IMG/VR virus record: IMGVR_UViG_3300035232_001084
Coordinates: 1 to 30,293 of that record
Reading direction: 5' to 3' (one strand)
DNA: 30,293 bases
Origin: a virus
Shown: positions 1,092 to 23,594 of the stretch, one piece after another
How positions within the stretch are numbered: the stretch's first letter is position 1
Layout: each line of letters opens with the position of its first letter
Notes under the pieces: generated by a model
What the model was told of the DNA's origin: nothing
Database searches by the model: none
Seen by the model: the letters and a program-made list of their open reading frames with translations, nothing else
Translations under genes and position numbers: made by a program

Positions 1092-4000
1092 ATGGCACTA
1101 GATCCGAAAATCGCTTCGATTAAAGCTGCAGGAACATACAGATTTGAATTTGACAAATCACAAGTAGTTAGTATTCCTGCTAATCAGACAAGATTAATTG
1201 TTGGTTTCTCCAAAACGGGACCTTTCAATACTCCGGTATTTGTACCTGACACCGCATTCTTTAAACAAGTTTATGGTGACATTGACAGAAACCTAGAAAG
1301 AAAGGATTCATTTTTCCACAGAAGCTGTTTAGCAGCATTGGAAAGAGGACCGATTCTTGCACTTAATCTATTAAACTTAACTGCTGCCGATAAGGTAGAG
1401 TATATTAAATTTGGTACGGCTGCTACCCCTGACATTCAGGATAATGCCGGCGCCTTAGGAGAATATCAAAAAATGTACAACCGAGATAAATTCTTTTATC
1501 CTGACACAGATGCATTCTTAGACAATGTAAATGCAAATAAACTTGATTTTAATTCAGGTACTACAAATGATTTATTAGATTTTACCAATTTAGGTCAAAA
1601 TCCAGTTTCAGTTATTGTAAGAAAAGCATCTTCTGCTAATTCAACAGGTTTTAATGTAACTGCTGAAGAATGGTATGGTGCTGCAAATGTACCAGGATTT
1701 TTAGATAAAGATAGTTTAGTATCCGACTTTTTAGTAGATGTATTTTTAATAGAAGGTAACTTTGGTGGAGACTTTGGTTCTGCAACACCGTATGAAAGGT
1801 TTGTAGCAGATCCAATTTACCAACAATATTTTGATAAAGTACAAGGATTAAAAAGAAGAGTTTTTGATTCAGATTCATCTGATACAAAAATTGCACAATT
1901 CTTTAATGAATCAGAAGTTAATGTCGTTGCAACTTATACTGCATCATTGCTTCCTAATTTTACAGACCTATTAGGTAATAACCTTTTTATTGAAAAAGTT
2001 ATTAATGCTGATACGGCAAGCACTGGTATATTCGTCGCGGTAAATGAAGATTTATTTGACGGTGATACATTAATTGATGGTGTTGCTGGTGGAATTGATA
2101 TGATAGGTCATAACCTTGAATATACTCAAGCTAATTCATTCCAGGAAGATGTTAATTTCTTATCTTACAGTGGAGCTGTTGTTTCAGATGTAAGTTATGC
2201 TGGTACAGGAACAACTCCTAATACAGTATCCGCAACAACTGAAGCTATTAATGTAACACAGTTAACAAGTGGAGATATACAAATACAAGTAGTAGGTTCT
2301 GCTGGTGATCCATTATGGGATGCGTTTTCAGGATTTACTAAAAACTCTGCAAGTGCTGTAGGAACTTACATATTAGCAAATACAGGTGCAGGAGATAAAT
2401 ATGTTCCGGTAATATCAGTACAGATTGTAGGAAATACAATTACCTTATTATTATCAAGTGTTGGTAGTATTATACCTGCTGATTTTAGTAATGTAACTGG
2501 AGCATCATATACTTATATTAACGAAAGTGACTTTGGGTTTGTAACTGATGAGGCTATATTAGCTGATAATGCAAATGCAAATATTATAGGTGGATATGGT
2601 TCAACATTATATAGCCAATTCTCAAACGGTACTCTTACTGATGGAGATGAAGCGGTATATGAAAATACAATTGGTGGAATTACTACACAGGATACTTCAT
2701 ATTTAGTATTTAATGCTGTAGATTATCCTGCGATTCATACACAGAGTCCGACAACGGCTTTAACAACAGTTCCAATTTCAGATCCGGCTTATTACTTGCC
2801 ATCTGTTCAGGTAACTCCTTATGAAGAAGATGGATTTAATAATTTAACACCACATGATCAATTTACTTTAGATCCTGCTAATGGAGGTTTCTTTTTAGAT
2901 ACTGACGCTGCCCCTTATGCTGCAGGTACATTAGGAATACAAACACTAAAAGGTGCAAATAATGTTTCTATAGATATTATTTCAAATTCAGTTACTGAAA
3001 CTGGCCTAAAGCCTAACCAAGTATTGATAGCATCTGATAATCCTGATGCTGCTGCTGTAGTTGTAGGAAACTATTTAGTACATTCTGAAGGTGATCCTAA
3101 CGGTGTAGCACATTCAAGGTTAACAAGAATAAATGTTGTACAAGGCGGATTAACAAATGCTGAGTTTAGTACTATCCCTGCAAATAAATCTGCATTGTTA
3201 GTAACATGTCAAAGCGAAATATCAACAACAACCGCTGCAGGTATTGTTAAAGTAGAATTATATTACCCAATAGATAAGTGGATTGATTATTTAAATATCT
3301 TTACATTGGATGGATTTAAGTTAACTTCAACTCATGTACCTAACGGAACTAATGAAAGACAGAATGAAATCTTAAATGGTACTTTAAATGGAACTAATTT
3401 ATTTAAGGCATTAACTGATAGAGATGTAATTAACTTTAGATATATTGTAGATACATTCGGAAACGGTATTGAAAGTGGATCTAAAGCGATCTATACAATA
3501 TTAGCTTCTACTAGAAAGAATGCATTCGCAATATTAAATGCTCCATCTGCTAAGGACTTTAAAAACAATACAGATCCTTCGTTTAAAGATCTAACTGGAA
3601 GCTTATCATCTAGATTTATTTCTACTGGTGGTGATCTTGCATTAAATCCTACAGTAAGATACTCATTACCATCTCAAACACAAGGTGCGAGTTGGGGAGC
3701 ATTCTATTATCCTTTTATTACTATTAGGGATTTAGGTAGAAATATAAATGTTGTACCAGCTGCATACGTTTCAAATAACTTTATTGCAAAATATGAAAAC
3801 GCTTTACCGTGGTCATTAGTTGCCGGAGTTCGTCGAGGTGTTGTAGGTGGAACTGGAGTTGTAGGATTAGAAATTAATCTTGGAAAAGAAGACAGAGAAT
3901 ACTTAGAACCATTTGGATTGAATCCGATTGTATTCCAAAGTGGAACTGGTCCAACAATCTTTGCAAATAAAACTGCACAGCAGACTACAAAATCTGCATT

Positions 4001-4328
4001 AAGTTCTATTAACTGTAGAGAGGTTGTAATTTATATCCAAGACGGTATTGAAGCAATCCTTAGAAACTATCTATTTGAATTCAATACAGCTCAAACAAGA
4101 TTAGAGATTAAAACACTTGCTGATAACTTTTTATCAACAGTCCAAAATGATGATGGTGTTTATGACTTTAAGAATGTAATGGATGAAACTAATAATACTC
4201 CAGAAGTTATTGATCAAAATGTAGGTATCCTAGATACATATATTGAGCCAGTAAGAGGAATGGAAATTCTTGTACAAAGAACAACTATTTTGAAAACAGG
4301 AGCTATTAGTTCAGGAAACTTCCAATAA
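1092..4328 (+). CDS. 18: Contractile tail sheath protein (gp18-like), unusually long
   Basis: Subunit of the contractile sheath that surrounds the tail tube. At 1078 residues it is far longer than T4 gp18 (659). The ends are recognisable. The N-terminal ~110 residues (SIPANQTRLIVGFSKTGPF; QVYGDIDRNLERKDSFFH) resemble gp18-family starts. The last ~200 residues hold the conserved contractile core, with EDREYLEPFGLNPIVFQSG, SINCREVVIYIQDGIEAIL and IEPVRGMEILVQRTT. The extra length is in the middle, roughly residues 120-800. That part is rich in Gly, Thr, Asn and Ala and looks like one or more beta-rich surface insertions. The gene lies between terminase and tail tube as in T4. The sheath call is secure; the function of the insertions is unknown. 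Confidence 0.93.
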   Translation: MALDPKIASIKAAGTYRFEFDKSQVVSIPANQTRLIVGFSKTGPFNTPVFVPDTAFFKQVYGDIDRNLERKDSFFHRSCLAALERGPILALNLLNLTAADKVEYIKFGTAATPDIQDNAGALGEYQKMYNRDKFFYPDTDAFLDNVNANKLDFNSGTTNDLLDFTNLGQNPVSVIVRKASSANSTGFNVTAEEWYGAANVPGFLDKDSLVSDFLVDVFLIEGNFGGDFGSATPYERFVADPIYQQYFDKVQGLKRRVFDSDSSDTKIAQFFNESEVNVVATYTASLLPNFTDLLGNNLFIEKVINADTASTGIFVAVNEDLFDGDTLIDGVAGGIDMIGHNLEYTQANSFQEDVNFLSYSGAVVSDVSYAGTGTTPNTVSATTEAINVTQLTSGDIQIQVVGSAGDPLWDAFSGFTKNSASAVGTYILANTGAGDKYVPVISVQIVGNTITLLLSSVGSIIPADFSNVTGASYTYINESDFGFVTDEAILADNANANIIGGYGSTLYSQFSNGTLTDGDEAVYENTIGGITTQDTSYLVFNAVDYPAIHTQSPTTALTTVPISDPAYYLPSVQVTPYEEDGFNNLTPHDQFTLDPANGGFFLDTDAAPYAAGTLGIQTLKGANNVSIDIISNSVTETGLKPNQVLIASDNPDAAAVVVGNYLVHSEGDPNGVAHSRLTRINVVQGGLTNAEFSTIPANKSALLVTCQSEISTTTAAGIVKVELYYPIDKWIDYLNIFTLDGFKLTSTHVPNGTNERQNEILNGTLNGTNLFKALTDRDVINFRYIVDTFGNGIESGSKAIYTILASTRKNAFAILNAPSAKDFKNNTDPSFKDLTGSLSSRFISTGGDLALNPTVRYSLPSQTQGASWGAFYYPFITIRDLGRNINVVPAAYVSNNFIAKYENALPWSLVAGVRRGVVGGTGVVGLEINLGKEDREYLEPFGLNPIVFQSGTGPTIFANKTAQQTTKSALSSINCREVVIYIQDGIEAILRNYLFEFNTAQTRLEIKTLADNFLSTVQNDDGVYDFKNVMDETNNTPEVIDQNVGILDTYIEPVRGMEILVQRTTILKTGAISSGNFQ

Positions 4329-4370: not shown

Positions 4371-4928
4371 ATGCCACTACCACATTATACCCAATCAAGG
4401 GCCAGTAGCCAAAGGTACGAACCAGTTCAGCCTAACCTATTCGAGGTGACGGTATTTTCACCGCTAGGGGATGATACGGGTTTAATCTTGGAGCAAGTTA
4501 AAACTATCGGAGGTTTAAATAACTTAAACCCAGCTGTAGATGCAATCGGACAGAAATACAAATTTGCTGATCGTTCATTTGCAAGTATGCCAGGTCAAAC
4601 ATTTATGGATCTGACTGTTAACTTTAGTCTTAACTTAAACGAAGCTAATGAAAATTACATTTACAATACATTCCGTAATTGGTACAAATTAATCTATGAT
4701 CCATTGACTGGTGAAATGGGATTAAAGAAAGACTATGTAGGAAGTATGATCATTGTACAATATAACAGAGCAGGTGATATCTTTAGAAAGATTACTTGTA
4801 AAGATGTATTCCCTACAGGTCAACCTGATTTTGTAGATGAATTAAGTTATGAAACTCCGGACGCAGTTGATTTAACAATGACTTATCGTTGTGATCACTG
4901 GGTTGAAGAAAATGTTGGAGCTGCATAA
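4371..4928 (+). CDS. 19: Tail tube protein (gp19-like)
   Basis: Stacks in hexameric rings to form the inner tail tube inside the sheath. It has 185 residues, slightly longer than T4 gp19 (163). Family-like features are the N-terminal YEPVQPNLFEV stretch, a beta-strand-rich body and a C-terminal strand ending in VDLTMTYRCDHW, typical of T4-type tube proteins. It lies 42 nt after the sheath gene and is followed by a strong terminator, so 18 and 19 probably end one late transcript. In T4 the next gene is the portal (20); here a GIY-YIG gene and then a gp26-like gene follow. The call rests on position and on the resemblance of both ends. Confidence 0.9.
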   Translation: MPLPHYTQSRASSQRYEPVQPNLFEVTVFSPLGDDTGLILEQVKTIGGLNNLNPAVDAIGQKYKFADRSFASMPGQTFMDLTVNFSLNLNEANENYIYNTFRNWYKLIYDPLTGEMGLKKDYVGSMIIVQYNRAGDIFRKITCKDVFPTGQPDFVDELSYETPDAVDLTMTYRCDHWVEENVGAA

Positions 4929-18061: not shown

Positions 18062-18966
18062 GAGTTTATAACGGAGAAACATTTGCCGATGCTTATGAAT
18101 TAGCATTAAACGATATATTGTATAACCCACAATATCAATCCTCACCTAGAGGTATGAAGATATTTGAAGTATCTGATGCAGCACTAGTTATCGAAGATCC
18201 TAGGTATTGTTTATATGAGAATTCTCGTAGGAGTAGTCAATTTAAATATATTGCAGCAGAGTTAGTATGGTATTTTACCGGTCGTAAAGATGCTGACTTT
18301 ATTACACCTTATGCAAAATTCTGGGATCAAATTAAAAATAAAGATGGCTCAGTTAATTCTGCTTATGGTAATCTTATCTTTACTGAAGAATTAGAAGATG
18401 GTAGGAATCAATACCAATGGGCATTAGATTCTTTAATTCAAGATAAAGACTCAAGACAGGCAATTATACATTTTAATAAACCTTCTCATCAGTGGAATGG
18501 TAATAAAGATTTTGTATGTACTCTTAATGGAGTTTTTCAAATAAGAGATAATAAATTAAACTTTACATTAGATATGAGGTCTAATGATTTAATTCTAGGT
18601 ATGCCTACTGATGTTGCATTCTTTTGTTTATTACAAATTCAAATGTTAGAGCATCTAAGAAAATACTACCCAGAATTAGAATTAGGTACTTATACTCATA
18701 TCGCACATTCATTACATTTATATGAAAGGCATTTTAATCTTGTAGGTGAAATGTTAGAAAAATCATTTAATCCTCAGTCATTCCCAGATATGAGAGAATT
18801 CTTAATTGATCCTAATGGTAAAGCATTAAATGGTTTAAACCAATTAGAAGAAGAAGTTCTCCAAATGAATGATTTAGTATTTAATGGTAATGCAAGTTGT
18901 ACTGTAGATAAACATGATGATCTTTTACATCAATGGATATCTGATGCAATCTTCGGAAATATATAA
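18058..18966 (+). CDS. Thymidylate synthase-family enzyme, probable dCMP hydroxymethylase
   Basis: A folate-dependent pyrimidine C5-transferase of 302 residues (E. coli TS 264; T4 gp42 246). The fold motifs are clear: catalytic Cys154 in DFVCTLNGVFQ, Arg174-Ser-Asn-Asp177 in MRSNDLILGMP, and His220-x-Tyr222 in SLHLYERH. Position +31 from the catalytic Cys is Asp185 (GMPTDVAFF). In E. coli TS this position is Asn177 (Cys146+31), which selects dUMP. In T4 dCMP hydroxymethylase it is Asp179 (Cys148+31), which selects dCMP. The ungapped spacing is seen directly; dCMP specificity is inferred. The His after the catalytic Cys of TS is Thr here, and one Arg of the phosphate-binding pair is Gln134. 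It is coupled to the small gene upstream. A plain thymidylate synthase remains possible. Confidence 0.85.
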   Translation: MRVYNGETFADAYELALNDILYNPQYQSSPRGMKIFEVSDAALVIEDPRYCLYENSRRSSQFKYIAAELVWYFTGRKDADFITPYAKFWDQIKNKDGSVNSAYGNLIFTEELEDGRNQYQWALDSLIQDKDSRQAIIHFNKPSHQWNGNKDFVCTLNGVFQIRDNKLNFTLDMRSNDLILGMPTDVAFFCLLQIQMLEHLRKYYPELELGTYTHIAHSLHLYERHFNLVGEMLEKSFNPQSFPDMREFLIDPNGKALNGLNQLEEEVLQMNDLVFNGNASCTVDKHDDLLHQWISDAIFGNI

Positions 18967-18983: not shown

Positions 18984-20606
18984 TTGAAGTACTTAAAATT
19001 ATTTGAACAGTTCATAAATGAAAAGAAACCAGCAGGAGCTCCTGATTGGCATGACTCTGATGCACCTGATGCAAACGGTAGGTTTAAAGATCTTTCTATA
19101 AAAGATTTGGCTGCATGGTTAATTAAAACCAGAAATAAAGATGTTAAAAAAATTAGCGGTTCTTTAACTCAGCAAGTAGTTTTTAATAGAAAGAGTGATC
19201 CTAAGTATGCTGAAAAGATGGAGAAAACCAGAAAAGAAGTATATAAACAATTAGGTAGAGAAGATTTATTAAAAGAAGCTTTACTTGAGAAAGGTTATAA
19301 CATGGATGATATTCATGATTTAATAGCATTCCATAGATTCAATAAAGACTTTAGAAAGTTATCTGCTAAAGATAAAGAATGGGTAGAGAATGATGCTAAA
19401 GAAAGAGGCTTTAATGAATCAGCTGATATTACTATAGGTGGTAAAGAATATAAGCTTATTCAAAAAGGAAGTAAAATTACTCTAACTAATACTAAGTTAT
19501 CAGCTGATAAGTTTATATTTAGAAATGAAAAAGAATTTAAAGCATGGGCTGATGACCAAGTAGAACCAATTGGTGGAACTCAATCATCTCATTTTGGTAT
19601 TAGTGAATCAGTTAATAATGAAGACTATCTTAAGAAGGTTAATTTTATATTAGCAGGAGAAAAGATAGAAGGTCTTACTGGTAAAAACAATAAAAGAATT
19701 TATGGTAAAATAAACGACGTATGTTTAGACAACCTATTTAATTCATTTTATGCAAAGGGTGATTATAAAAAAGACCTTGATGTTGATCCGAAGCTACCTC
19801 TTATTTATTATGGTGGAAATTCAAAAGAAGGTTTAGATTTTCTAAAGAGATACAATGTATCAGAGGATGTTATGTATAACTTACCAGAAGCAATGAAGGT
19901 TAGTGGTAATAAGAGTGATTTTTATAAAATGTTTAAAGATACTGATTTTATTCCAAAGGCAGTTTATAAAAAGGAAGATGCAAAAGATTTAGAATTTCCT
20001 ATTATTGCAAAACCTGATGACGGTCATTCTGGTTTAGGTATTGAGATTTTTGATACTTATGAAGACTTAGAAAAAAGTAAAGGTAAATTTGAAAACTATT
20101 CTGAGGCAAAAGATCTTGATAGAGAATTTAGAGTTTTACTAATGAATGAAGATCCTGTGTTAGTTCATGAGAGAGTTTCTTTAAATGAAAATGAAATTAA
20201 AGATAAAGAAGCCGATGAACAAACCGAATTTACTTATGTAGATCAAGATATGAGTAAATTAGATTTTATGGATAAAGTAAATGATATCTGTAAAAAGGTT
20301 AGAGAAAAATTAAAACTTGGTCTTTGGTCAATCGATTTAATGATTGATAAGAGTGGAGATTGTTGGGTTGCCGAAATTAACTCAGCATCTGGTATGGCAG
20401 CAGATAAAATGGCAAGAGTATATGTTAAAGTGTATGAAGATTTCTATGATGAGAAATTACCACAAGAATTTAAGACTCATTTAAATGAAGAATACATTAA
20501 GCCTATTTATAAAATTAATCTTAAAGAAAATGCGGATCAAATTAAAAGATCTAAGTGCTGCGTTAATTATCAGGATATTATTGATGGAAAAGAAACTATT
20601 CTTTAA
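18984..20606 (+). CDS. ATP-grasp ligase-like protein with capsid-targeting N-terminus
   Basis: A 540-residue protein starting with TTG at 18984, chosen because the targeting motif begins there. Residues 4-13 (LKLFEQFINE) match the T4 internal-protein capsid-targeting pattern K-x-[YF]-x-x-F-I-x-E, cut after Glu by the prohead protease. Residues 31-92 are a helical module (DLSIKDLAAWLIKTR; SGSLTQQVVFNRKSDPKYAE). Residues 145-200 look like a small beta domain. Residues ~265-490 are an ATP-grasp fold: Lys343 in PIIAKPDDGHSGLGI, Asp451 in LWSIDLMID, and Glu464/Asn466 in VAEINSASGMA, as in RimK/D-Ala-D-Ala ligase-like enzymes. Such enzymes join a carboxylate to an amine or thiol. Packaging in the head and delivery with DNA is inferred from the N-terminus. 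The substrate is unknown. Confidence 0.8.
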   Translation: MKYLKLFEQFINEKKPAGAPDWHDSDAPDANGRFKDLSIKDLAAWLIKTRNKDVKKISGSLTQQVVFNRKSDPKYAEKMEKTRKEVYKQLGREDLLKEALLEKGYNMDDIHDLIAFHRFNKDFRKLSAKDKEWVENDAKERGFNESADITIGGKEYKLIQKGSKITLTNTKLSADKFIFRNEKEFKAWADDQVEPIGGTQSSHFGISESVNNEDYLKKVNFILAGEKIEGLTGKNNKRIYGKINDVCLDNLFNSFYAKGDYKKDLDVDPKLPLIYYGGNSKEGLDFLKRYNVSEDVMYNLPEAMKVSGNKSDFYKMFKDTDFIPKAVYKKEDAKDLEFPIIAKPDDGHSGLGIEIFDTYEDLEKSKGKFENYSEAKDLDREFRVLLMNEDPVLVHERVSLNENEIKDKEADEQTEFTYVDQDMSKLDFMDKVNDICKKVREKLKLGLWSIDLMIDKSGDCWVAEINSASGMAADKMARVYVKVYEDFYDEKLPQEFKTHLNEEYIKPIYKINLKENADQIKRSKCCVNYQDIIDGKETIL

Positions 20607-20692: not shown

Positions 20693-21226
20693 ATGCAAAA
20701 AGATTTAAAAAGCCTTAATGATTTTTATATAACATCTGATACCTGGTTCGGTAGACCACAAATACTTCAGATTGCTAATAGAAAATTTAATGATGTAGAT
20801 GAAATGAATGCTGCACTTATTAAAAATTGGAATAAGGCAGTAAAGAAAAATGATATTGTTTTTCATCTAGGAAATTTTGCATGGGATCCACAAACCGCAA
20901 GAGCTGTTCTAAAAAGACTCAATGGTCAAATCTATTTTATGATAGGTAGTGCTGATGAGGCCTTTTTAGATATTCAACATGAATTTGAAAATGTATCTAT
21001 TTTAGAAGATCAGATTGTAGAATTACCTCAATTTGATTCTATAATTTGCCACTATCCATTAGATGTATGGAATGGTAAAGATTCAGGTACCCTTCACTTT
21101 CACGGTCATACAATATTTTCTCATAAGACTGACTTGTCTAAAATGAATAGAATAAACGTATGTACAGATTTTTGGAATTATACACCAGTAAATTATTTAA
21201 CCATTAAAGATTTTATAAATGAGTAA
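20693..21226 (+). CDS. Degenerate metallophosphoesterase-like protein
   Basis: A 177-residue protein with the overall layout of small phage calcineurin-like phosphoesterases (FITSDTHFGH...HLGDF...RGNHD...SHYPL...HGH). Several metal ligands are replaced. The first motif is TSDTWFG (His to Trp), the second is HLGNFAW (Asp to Asn) and the third is IGSADE in place of GNHD. The later motifs CHYPLDVW and FHGHTIF keep their His residues. The fold is thus probably kept while the usual two-metal site is broken, so it may be a binding protein or have changed chemistry. It is the first gene behind promoter copy 2 and overlaps the sigma gene by 8 nt. The ATG is 32 nt after the -7 box. Confidence 0.78.
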   Translation: MQKDLKSLNDFYITSDTWFGRPQILQIANRKFNDVDEMNAALIKNWNKAVKKNDIVFHLGNFAWDPQTARAVLKRLNGQIYFMIGSADEAFLDIQHEFENVSILEDQIVELPQFDSIICHYPLDVWNGKDSGTLHFHGHTIFSHKTDLSKMNRINVCTDFWNYTPVNYLTIKDFINE

Positions 21227-21857
21227 AACAAAAAAGAAAACCTACAAGGAACTAGCAACAGAGTTCAAAAAGACAAGAAATGAAAAAGTATATAATGAGC
21301 TTTATCATAAGATGAGACCAGGTCTATGGAACTATGTCAATAATATTATTAAAGATCCTTTAATTTCTGATGATATAGTATCTCATACATTAACAACCGT
21401 ATATTTAAAAATTGATCAATACAACGAGGATTACCAAATTACTACATGGGCATATCGTATTGCATATAATGAATGTATAGGTTGGATTAGATTTAGAAAT
21501 AAGAAAGTAAGTATGAATGTATTTACTGATGCTGGTGTTGAACCGCCAATGGAACCTTCTATTACTCTAAGACATGATTCATATCTTCCTAAAACTGATA
21601 GTGATTGGGAAAATGAACAAACAACTTTAGATGAACAGGTTAGATTAACCCATGAGGCTATTAATGCGTTGCCTCCGATGTACAAGCGATATATGATAGA
21701 AAGATTTTTAAATCATAGATCATATCAAGATATTTTAGATATTATGATAGAGTCCGAAAAGGGTATAAATTTACAAACAGTTAAGAACAGAATATTTAGG
21801 GGTAGGAAAATAGTTAAAAAACAGCTCGAAGGGATGAAACTATTTGCTGATGCCTAA
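21219..21857 (+). CDS. Sigma-70 family (ECF-like) RNA polymerase sigma factor
   Basis: Directs host RNA polymerase to phage promoters. Residues ~20-95 match region 2 (ISDDIVSHTLTTVYLKID; then the -10-binding face with YQITTWAYRIAYNECIGWIR). Residues ~140-205 match region 4 (EAINALPPMYKRYMIERFLN, then a helix-turn-helix SYQDILDIM and TVKNRIFRGRKIVKKQL). The linker between them is acidic. With 212 residues it has an ECF layout, not the shorter T4 gp55 one. It is co-transcribed with the degenerate phosphoesterase from promoter copy 2, so it is probably made early and used for later genes. Its likely targets are the TATATAAAA-type motifs in this window, which is inference. Confidence 0.88.
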   Translation: MSKTKKKTYKELATEFKKTRNEKVYNELYHKMRPGLWNYVNNIIKDPLISDDIVSHTLTTVYLKIDQYNEDYQITTWAYRIAYNECIGWIRFRNKKVSMNVFTDAGVEPPMEPSITLRHDSYLPKTDSDWENEQTTLDEQVRLTHEAINALPPMYKRYMIERFLNHRSYQDILDIMIESEKGINLQTVKNRIFRGRKIVKKQLEGMKLFADA

Positions 21858-22538: not shown

Positions 22539-23288
22539 ATGGCAACAGCTGAATCCTTAGCAACAACAGAAACTATAAATGGCAAAAGATACTATAACTT
22601 AGGTAAAGGTATTAAGTATCCATCGGTAACTACTATCTTAGGGGCAATGACTGATAAATCAGGAATTGATAAATGGAGAAAACGTGTAGGTGATAAAGAA
22701 GCAGACAGAATTTCTAAGTTCTCCGCAAACCGAGGAACTGTAATGCATCAGTTTTGTGAATACTTTTTAGGTTCAGAAAAAGAAACTGTTAGAGAAAGGT
22801 TAATGGAAGCACAAACCCTTATAGGACCATTTGTTAAAGAAAATGGTTTTACCGAGGAAGAAACTAATGTAGGTAGAAAACTCTTCTTTAATTTTTATAA
22901 TAATGAATGTTTTGACAGGATAGCTAAAGTAGTATCCATAGAAGATACATTACATTCACCTCAGATGGGTGGTTATGCAGGTAGAGTTGATATTATTTAT
23001 GAGAATAAAAAAGCTCATCTAGTCGTCTTAGATTTTAAATCTTCAAAGAAACCTAAAAGAGAAGGTTGGATTGAAAATTATAAAATGCAAATTGCTGCAT
23101 ATTCTTTAGCTTATTGGGAAATGCATGGTGTTAAACCAGAAGGTGGTGAGATTTGGATTAGTAATGAATCTGACGCATTTCCGCAAGTATTTGAAATGAC
23201 ATTTGATGATATATCATTTTATGGAAAGAAATTCCTTTCTTTAGTAAAGGAGTTTCATGAAAAGTATCCATTAAACGAGAATATATAA
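22539..23288 (+). CDS. PD-(D/E)XK exonuclease (RecB/MGME1-like)
   Basis: A DNA exonuclease of the RecB-like nuclease fold, 249 residues. Motifs are His70 in GTVMHQFCEYF, Asp151 in AGRVDIIYE, Asp165-x-Lys167 in VLDFKSSKK, and Gln184-x-x-x-Tyr188 in YKMQIAAYSLA, the full active site in the usual order. The N-terminal YPSVTTILGAM is a shared feature of phage and mitochondrial MGME1-type members. It may act in host DNA breakdown, recombination or end processing. It follows the coiled-coil/zinc gene by 1 nt. No helicase domain is present. Confidence 0.88.
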   Translation: MATAESLATTETINGKRYYNLGKGIKYPSVTTILGAMTDKSGIDKWRKRVGDKEADRISKFSANRGTVMHQFCEYFLGSEKETVRERLMEAQTLIGPFVKENGFTEEETNVGRKLFFNFYNNECFDRIAKVVSIEDTLHSPQMGGYAGRVDIIYENKKAHLVVLDFKSSKKPKREGWIENYKMQIAAYSLAYWEMHGVKPEGGEIWISNESDAFPQVFEMTFDDISFYGKKFLSLVKEFHEKYPLNENI

Positions 23289-23306: not shown

Positions 23307-23594
23307 ATGGCAATTAAATCATTTAAGGATTTTATTAATGAAGAACTCGATCATGTAAGACATAAAAAGGTTAAACATGTAGAGGATCATGATCCAGAAG
23401 ATTCTGCAAATAAAGAAGCCGAGGCTAATGCTGAGGAGTATTTACAAAAAGTAGAAGAAGAATGCCCTAGATGTGGAGAACATTCTGATGATTGTCAATG
23501 TGAAGAAGATGATCCTTGGTCTACTCAAAATTATCATAGAGTACCTAAAGGTTCAGAACATACAGCAAAACCAAAACAAGAATTTAAAAAATAA
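23307..23594 (+). CDS. Small charged protein with capsid-targeting N-terminus (putative internal head protein)
   Basis: Residues 4-12 (KSFKDFINE) match the T4 internal-protein targeting pattern K-x-[YF]-x-x-F-I-x-E, cut by the prohead protease after I-x-E. The remaining ~83 residues are very polar: a His/Lys-rich stretch (VRHKKVKHVEDHD), an acidic helix (EAEANAEEYLQKVEEE), a Cys cluster CPRCGEHSDDCQC that could bind zinc, and a Lys-rich end. Size and composition resemble T4 internal proteins IPI-IPIII, some of which are injected and block host defences. It is preceded by a TATATAAAAAAA motif. The targeting peptide is seen; packaging and function are inferred. Confidence 0.78.
   Translation: MAIKSFKDFINEELDHVRHKKVKHVEDHDPEDSANKEAEANAEEYLQKVEEECPRCGEHSDDCQCEEDDPWSTQNYHRVPKGSEHTAKPKQEFKK

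Follow-up and report, generated by a model that had tools for sequence, protein, structure and literature searches.

Why should a phage ligase begin with the kind of peptide that sends proteins into the head of a virion? This question is raised by an open reading frame (ORF) at positions 18984..20606 (+ strand) of IMG/VR virus record IMGVR_UViG_3300035232_001084, of which the stretch analysed here, 30,293 nucleotides long, is called the window. The ORF starts with TTG and encodes 540 residues, consisting of a short N-terminal peptide (the tag), an N-terminal domain (N-domain), two small modules and an ATP-grasp ligase. An initial annotation had proposed that the ligase is packaged in the phage head and injected. 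The sequence evidence (enrichment and conservation of the tag, its likeness to scaffold repeats and a late-type box upstream of the gene) strongly favours packaging by way of a T4-type capsid-targeting peptide, and injection followed by action on a host molecule would be expected by analogy with the T4 internal proteins and Alt. The complete reading, that of a head cargo docked by its tag, cut by the prohead protease, ejected with the DNA and acting as a ligase on a host molecule, is given a probability of about 0.72.

The N-terminal tag

Residues 1-13 of the ORF, MKYLKLFEQFINE (18984..19022, +), contain KLFEQFINE, as had been noticed initially, and are assigned as a capsid-targeting peptide, with a predicted cut after Glu13, from a motif census, from conservation and from a match to T4 IPII and IPIII. 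The TTG start is considered right because relatives have TTG or ATG at the aligned position, and because the next in-frame ATG (codon 79) lies within a domain of 78-91% identity between phages. As in T4-type internal head proteins, the N-terminal peptide falls within the 10-20-residue range and ends in [IL]xE. In the T4 record IPII and IPIII start MKTYQEFIAE/A (slashes mark cleavage positions, predicted ones included), which makes the match to the T4 tag a true one, and distant relatives of the ATP-grasp enzyme begin MKDYRHFLFE/A and MKNYRHFLNE/D. The T4 tag carries foreign proteins into heads and is cut off by gp21 (PMC5694885, PMC3012670).

The occurrence of the tag motif, defined as [FY]xx[FY][ILVM]xE starting within the first ten residues, was analyzed in 1471 genes, called with a simple dynamic-programming caller, from the window and the joined stretches of 11 related IMG/VR records (12 in total). 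The motif was found at the N-terminus of 72 genes against 3.1 expected from its internal rate, with the repeat-bearing protease set aside (23-fold enrichment); a second, overlapping set of loci gave a 32-fold enrichment. Grouped by BLAST of the sequence that follows the tag, the 72 proteins form 36 unrelated families, the fairer figure given that some of the records are near-copies. Because the excess over expectation extends across so many unrelated families, the tag of the window ORF is, as judged from these sequences, not a product of chance. It is also a portable, reusable module, the N-domain and the ATP-grasp being encoded elsewhere by separate genes that each have a tag.

A profile search recovered 80 loci of the ATP-grasp enzyme. 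Related phages do carry the motif on their ligases: it stands at the protein start in 45 of 51 distinct ATP-grasp ORFs, with identities to the window enzyme down to ~30%. Homologs starting downstream of the motif had been named as grounds for refutation; with 45 of the 51 keeping the tag, the outcome favours packaging. Also, M1, F10 and E13 reach a conservation of at least 90% (42 sequences), like the catalytic residues. In loci L006-L012, L015 and L016 the enzyme has an ORF and a tag to itself, as has the N-domain in L008-L012, and both occur as adjacent tagged genes in L159. On the enzyme tree, the fused forms require at least three changes.

Two further loci are of note for the enzyme family. 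Two differing tagged ATP-grasp genes lie side by side in L151 (2751-4708), and the same ATP-grasp is found in a 462-kb huge phage (LR756500.1 254766-255722, L085), where its start, MKFIKPYEEFKIND, keeps the shape of the tag and not the cleavage site. Apart from the ATP-grasp enzymes, about 30 tagged families occur in G010, G024, G027, G030, G035 and other census records, nearly all lacking a Pfam or PHROG name where scanned, and these are candidate injected proteins. Two tagged ORFs of G035 (104466-104864 and 105797-106765; L107) have starts with ..FYHAT.. and ..VYHFTS.., which recall ADP-ribosyltransferases of the T4 Alt kind, with weak library support; for the first, a weak KptA match (E 0.023) and no match in PDB were obtained, which makes it a lead.

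Head protease and scaffold-like repeats

The gp21-like protease that was to be sought outside the window is present in syntenic relatives. The window aligns collinearly with G001 52255-74382, the proteins being mostly 80-99% identical, and a protease-scaffold ORF (G001 39254-41059 = L063 1254-3059) lies ~11 kb upstream of the collinear stretch. Peptidase_S77 was recognised in 9 of 37 related records; the relatives' protease has T4 gp21 (5JBL) as its sole significant solved match and adjoins Portal_T4 and Gp23. A PF03420 search of the window alone gave no match, which for a fragment of 30 kb is uninformative.

Tandem repeats, YSEYIAENVDKSI, make up the second half of the protease ORF and follow [YFH]xx[YFH][ILV]xE with an exact spacing of 14 residues. 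The protein contains 36-41 [ILVM]xE sites versus the 15-18 predicted by composition. In sequence pattern the tag is the same as this presumed scaffold repeat. In G027 and G035, tagged proteins of 86-114 residues are encoded between the portal and protease genes, the interval that in T4 is the place of gp67/gp68, and a further tagged protein follows the capsid gene in G001, G013, G020 and G024. Uncultured huge phages, LR756500 among them (40.6% over 93% of the query), have homologs of the protease-scaffold protein as well, and in Lak phages the protease part was matched.

A late-type box upstream of tagged genes

The window contains four copies of the sequence RATATATAA, each of them on the coding strand and 17-28 bases upstream of a gene. 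The genes concerned are a tail sheath-like gene (1092-4328, +; assigned by position, not by profile), the tail tube gene (4371-4928, +; PHROG tail tube), the ATP-grasp gene and a second tagged gene. The box of the ATP-grasp gene, AATATATAA (18958..18966, +), shares bases with the stop codon of the thymidylate synthase ORF that precedes the gene. The second tagged gene (23307..23594, +; box at 23280..23288, +) encodes a 95-residue protein with cysteine pairs that begins MAIKSFKDFINE/EL... and belongs to a conserved family with five census members and more in further loci. In G001 the box also precedes the portal, the protease and a tagged head-cluster gene. Across loci, it was found upstream of 20 of 45 distinct ATP-grasp loci versus 24 of 579 other genes (P 9e-14, computed without correction for relatedness). 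RATATATAA may represent the late-type promoter element of this lineage, common to head and tail genes. The T4 late box TATAAATA was not enriched upstream of tagged genes (2/72 versus 45/1393). A sigma-70-type factor with regions 2 and 4 is encoded at 21219-21857 (+) of the window, and is a candidate reader of the box.

The ATP-grasp ligase

The ligase occupies residues 209-540 (19608..20603, +), most of which (about 215-540) is predicted with high confidence; low confidence is seen at residues 22-31, 113-126, 137-145 and 194-209 of the protein. The site that had looked complete in the window (Lys343, Asp451, Glu464/Asn466) is identical in 38 of 38 aligned ATP-grasp sequences, as are K310, E381, R383 and R397. 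The structure prediction suggested in order to settle the ATP-grasp class has DdlB and LysX/ArgX as nearest solved structures, with RimK further down. Matches were also obtained to Dala_Dala_lig_C (PF07478; E 2.2e-6, 27.7 bits, above its cut-off of 24) and to PHROG 2599 (E 3e-13).

The fold with conserved Lys, Asp, ExN and ExR by which ATP-grasp enzymes are recognised (PMC4431377) is present, and the ExR assemblage consists almost entirely of ligases forming peptide-like bonds (PMC4431377). By its ExR (E381, R383) and ExN the window enzyme is therefore placed among ATP-grasps almost all of which make such bonds. Narrower assignments were rejected: the enzyme scores 26.5 bits as a D-alanine-D-alanine ligase against a curated TIGR01205 cut-off of 245.65, and 16.3 bits as a RimK against 143.4 for TIGR00768. 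No R2K/DUF4343 Pfam model, the R2K family being one discussed for jumbo phages (PMC7824862), was among the matches up to E=1, and the invariant K310 is probably the pre-ATP-grasp lysine that R2K lacks. A cellular origin was likewise rejected, as a search of 84,980 genomes gave four weak matches in all and no close cellular relative. The substrate favoured, from the parallel with T4 Alt, is a protein or peptide of the host.

Additional modules and their junctions

Where two extra N-terminal domains had been announced, the extra N-terminal parts were recovered and the count was not. They comprise a helical N-domain of ~82 residues without known fold (14-95; 19023..19268, +), which is a separate tagged gene in other phages, a short helical module of low model confidence (99-142; 19278..19409, +), and a small beta module whose presence varies among relatives (146-205; 19419..19598, +). 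The parts are joined at [ILF]xE sites, namely LKE98/A (19269..19277, +), FNE145/S (19410..19418, +) and ISE208/S (19599..19607, +), the last within the low-confidence linker 194-209. Pfam searches with the N-domain, the small modules and other fused modules gave nothing significant, the best match in a fold search with the N-domain was no better than E 5.6, and a library of defence systems gave no match.

Relatives combine these modules in different orders, with [ILVMF]xE at the join in 20 of the 20 junctions listed, versus 17% of random stretches of like length. The best sequence evidence for a cut polyprotein is provided by modules that occur both fused and free. Thus, L041 has ..KHIKLFEQYITE/ARDSDYEMI within a chain where a separate protein reads MKTIKLYEQFINE/ASSSDYKML, and L037 has ..MKYIKPLHE/AKRGAIHKA where the separate form is MKKVKLFESFIAE/ANKGKVHKT, a predicted cleavage site lying at the join in both pairs. 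Cleavage at the internal junctions of the window protein is a prediction; by this evidence it looks like a polyprotein of internal head proteins processed by the prohead protease, its extra domains probably being separate cargo modules that the protease would release. Longer chains were observed as well: L037 4894-7089 and L038 9986-12337 encode 731 and 783 residues with several tag-separated modules, including an unnamed ~110-residue domain (YPAAAK...GWARAxQLA...AWLIWGGDEGVDWA) common to three phages.

Proposed mechanism and alternative explanations

According to the mechanism proposed, the cargo would be made late in infection along with head and tail proteins, and its 13-residue N-terminal peptide, resembling one scaffold repeat of the protease-scaffold protein, would dock it in the prohead core by mimicry of that repeat. 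The gp21-type prohead protease would then cut after Glu13 and probably also after Glu98, Glu145 and Glu208, so that the head would contain the ATP-grasp ligase in free form, together with a small helical protein and one or two small modules. These products would leave the head with the DNA and enter the host, where the ligase would couple an amino acid or peptide to some host molecule; the enzyme class makes a protein or peptide most likely. A broader form of the idea, to which we give even odds, is that effector polyproteins, each comprising several delivered proteins, are loaded through a single scaffold-mimicking tag and matured by the prohead protease, which would have this second task and cut them in the head at tag-like sites. 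The tag would then be a readable loading code listing the injected arsenal, including peptide ligases and putative ADP-ribosyltransferases.

Several observations weigh against the mechanism. The window, a 30-kb fragment, has no protease gene of its own, and 6 of the 51 ATP-grasp ORFs lack the motif as searched, one having a two-residue insert (FLHLTE) and the others keeping a KLFEEF-like start from which the cleavage residue is lost. The boundaries of the junctions were set manually, and the 20 cases do not count as independent. Also, the number of boxes in the window is that of chance (4 observed, 4.35 expected in shuffles) and two of the four run into the stop codon of the gene before; only the placement of the box is therefore informative.

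The packaged ligase could instead work in the head, modifying scaffold, core or capsid proteins at assembly, with delivery to the host being incidental. The late-type box and the presence among the tagged proteins of head-cluster ones, probably core proteins, agree with such a role; however, the gene lies outside the head cluster, adjoining thymidylate synthase, and both domain make-up and ATP-grasp subtype differ much among close relatives, a pattern that fits accessory cargo better than an assembly factor, which renders this alternative unlikely. That ATP-grasp genes occur in many phages without any known tag could reflect a function in the late infected cell, for instance on the ribosome or cell wall, the tag serving for docking or turnover with little or no ejection. 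This is considered very unlikely, as the tag ends in a protease cleavage pattern and matches the scaffold repeat. The same repeats in the protease-scaffold protein bear on a third possibility, that the motif, being short and made of common residues, is a coincidence or a general amphipathic helix without a role in packaging. An amphipathic helix is not favoured because the scaffold repeats carry the motif, and coincidence is opposed by the 23-fold N-terminal enrichment over 36 families and by tag conservation on par with the catalytic residues, making this explanation highly improbable. Delivery of a head cargo acting on the host is the preferred reading.

Relation to known systems and implications

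The closest parallel is provided by IPI, IPII, IPIII and Alt of T4, with which the window protein shares a short N-terminal peptide, [FY]xxF[IL]xE. Common to both systems are also T4-type protease and head genes (here in the relatives) and diverse cargo having the tag alone in common; Alt, moreover, is a protein-modifying enzyme delivered from the head, as is proposed for the ligase here. Delivery of internal proteins under a common tag is known from T4 (PMC5694885, PMC3012670). In contrast to T4, the cargo here is an ATP-grasp enzyme that shares its chain with other modules and has cleavage-like sites within it, protease and scaffold form one protein, and the tag resembles the scaffold repeat. 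With the ATP-grasp peptide ligases (D-Ala-D-Ala ligase, RimK, LysX/ArgX; PHROG 2599) the window enzyme shares fold, all catalytic residues and ExR/ExN, yet it falls far below the curated cut-offs for Ddl and RimK and no close cellular relative was found. Polyvalent proteins of phages and plasmids, discussed as injected multidomain proteins (PMC5512222), likewise combine several unrelated domains per polypeptide and are thought to be injected and processed. However, no polyvalent domain was recognised here, Pfam and PHROGs see the ATP-grasp part alone, and processing would use the prohead protease at tag-like sites.

The initial annotation knew of no injected ATP-grasp effector in T4-like phages. 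The literature searched here gave no account of tagged ATP-grasp cargo, of a scaffold-repeat-like tag or of effector chains cut by a prohead protease. It had, however, overlooked YerA41_066 of Yersinia phage YerA41, an ATP-grasp-like protein annotated as structural in a phage whose particle proteome was measured. YerA41_066 has ~25% identity to the window enzyme and lacks the N-terminal tag; by its annotation as a virion protein it sets a loose precedent for an enzyme of this type in phage particles.

Injected proteins are usually identified singly by proteomics, whereas the N-terminal code described here, which recurs in the scaffold and is kept by many metagenomic phages, allows dozens of proteins without an assigned function to be predicted as packaged. 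If the proposed reading is true, peptide or amino-acid ligation would, through the ATP-grasp cargo, join ADP-ribosylation among the host-directed chemistries that precede phage gene expression, and the fused forms suggest that effector polyproteins may be matured in the capsid.
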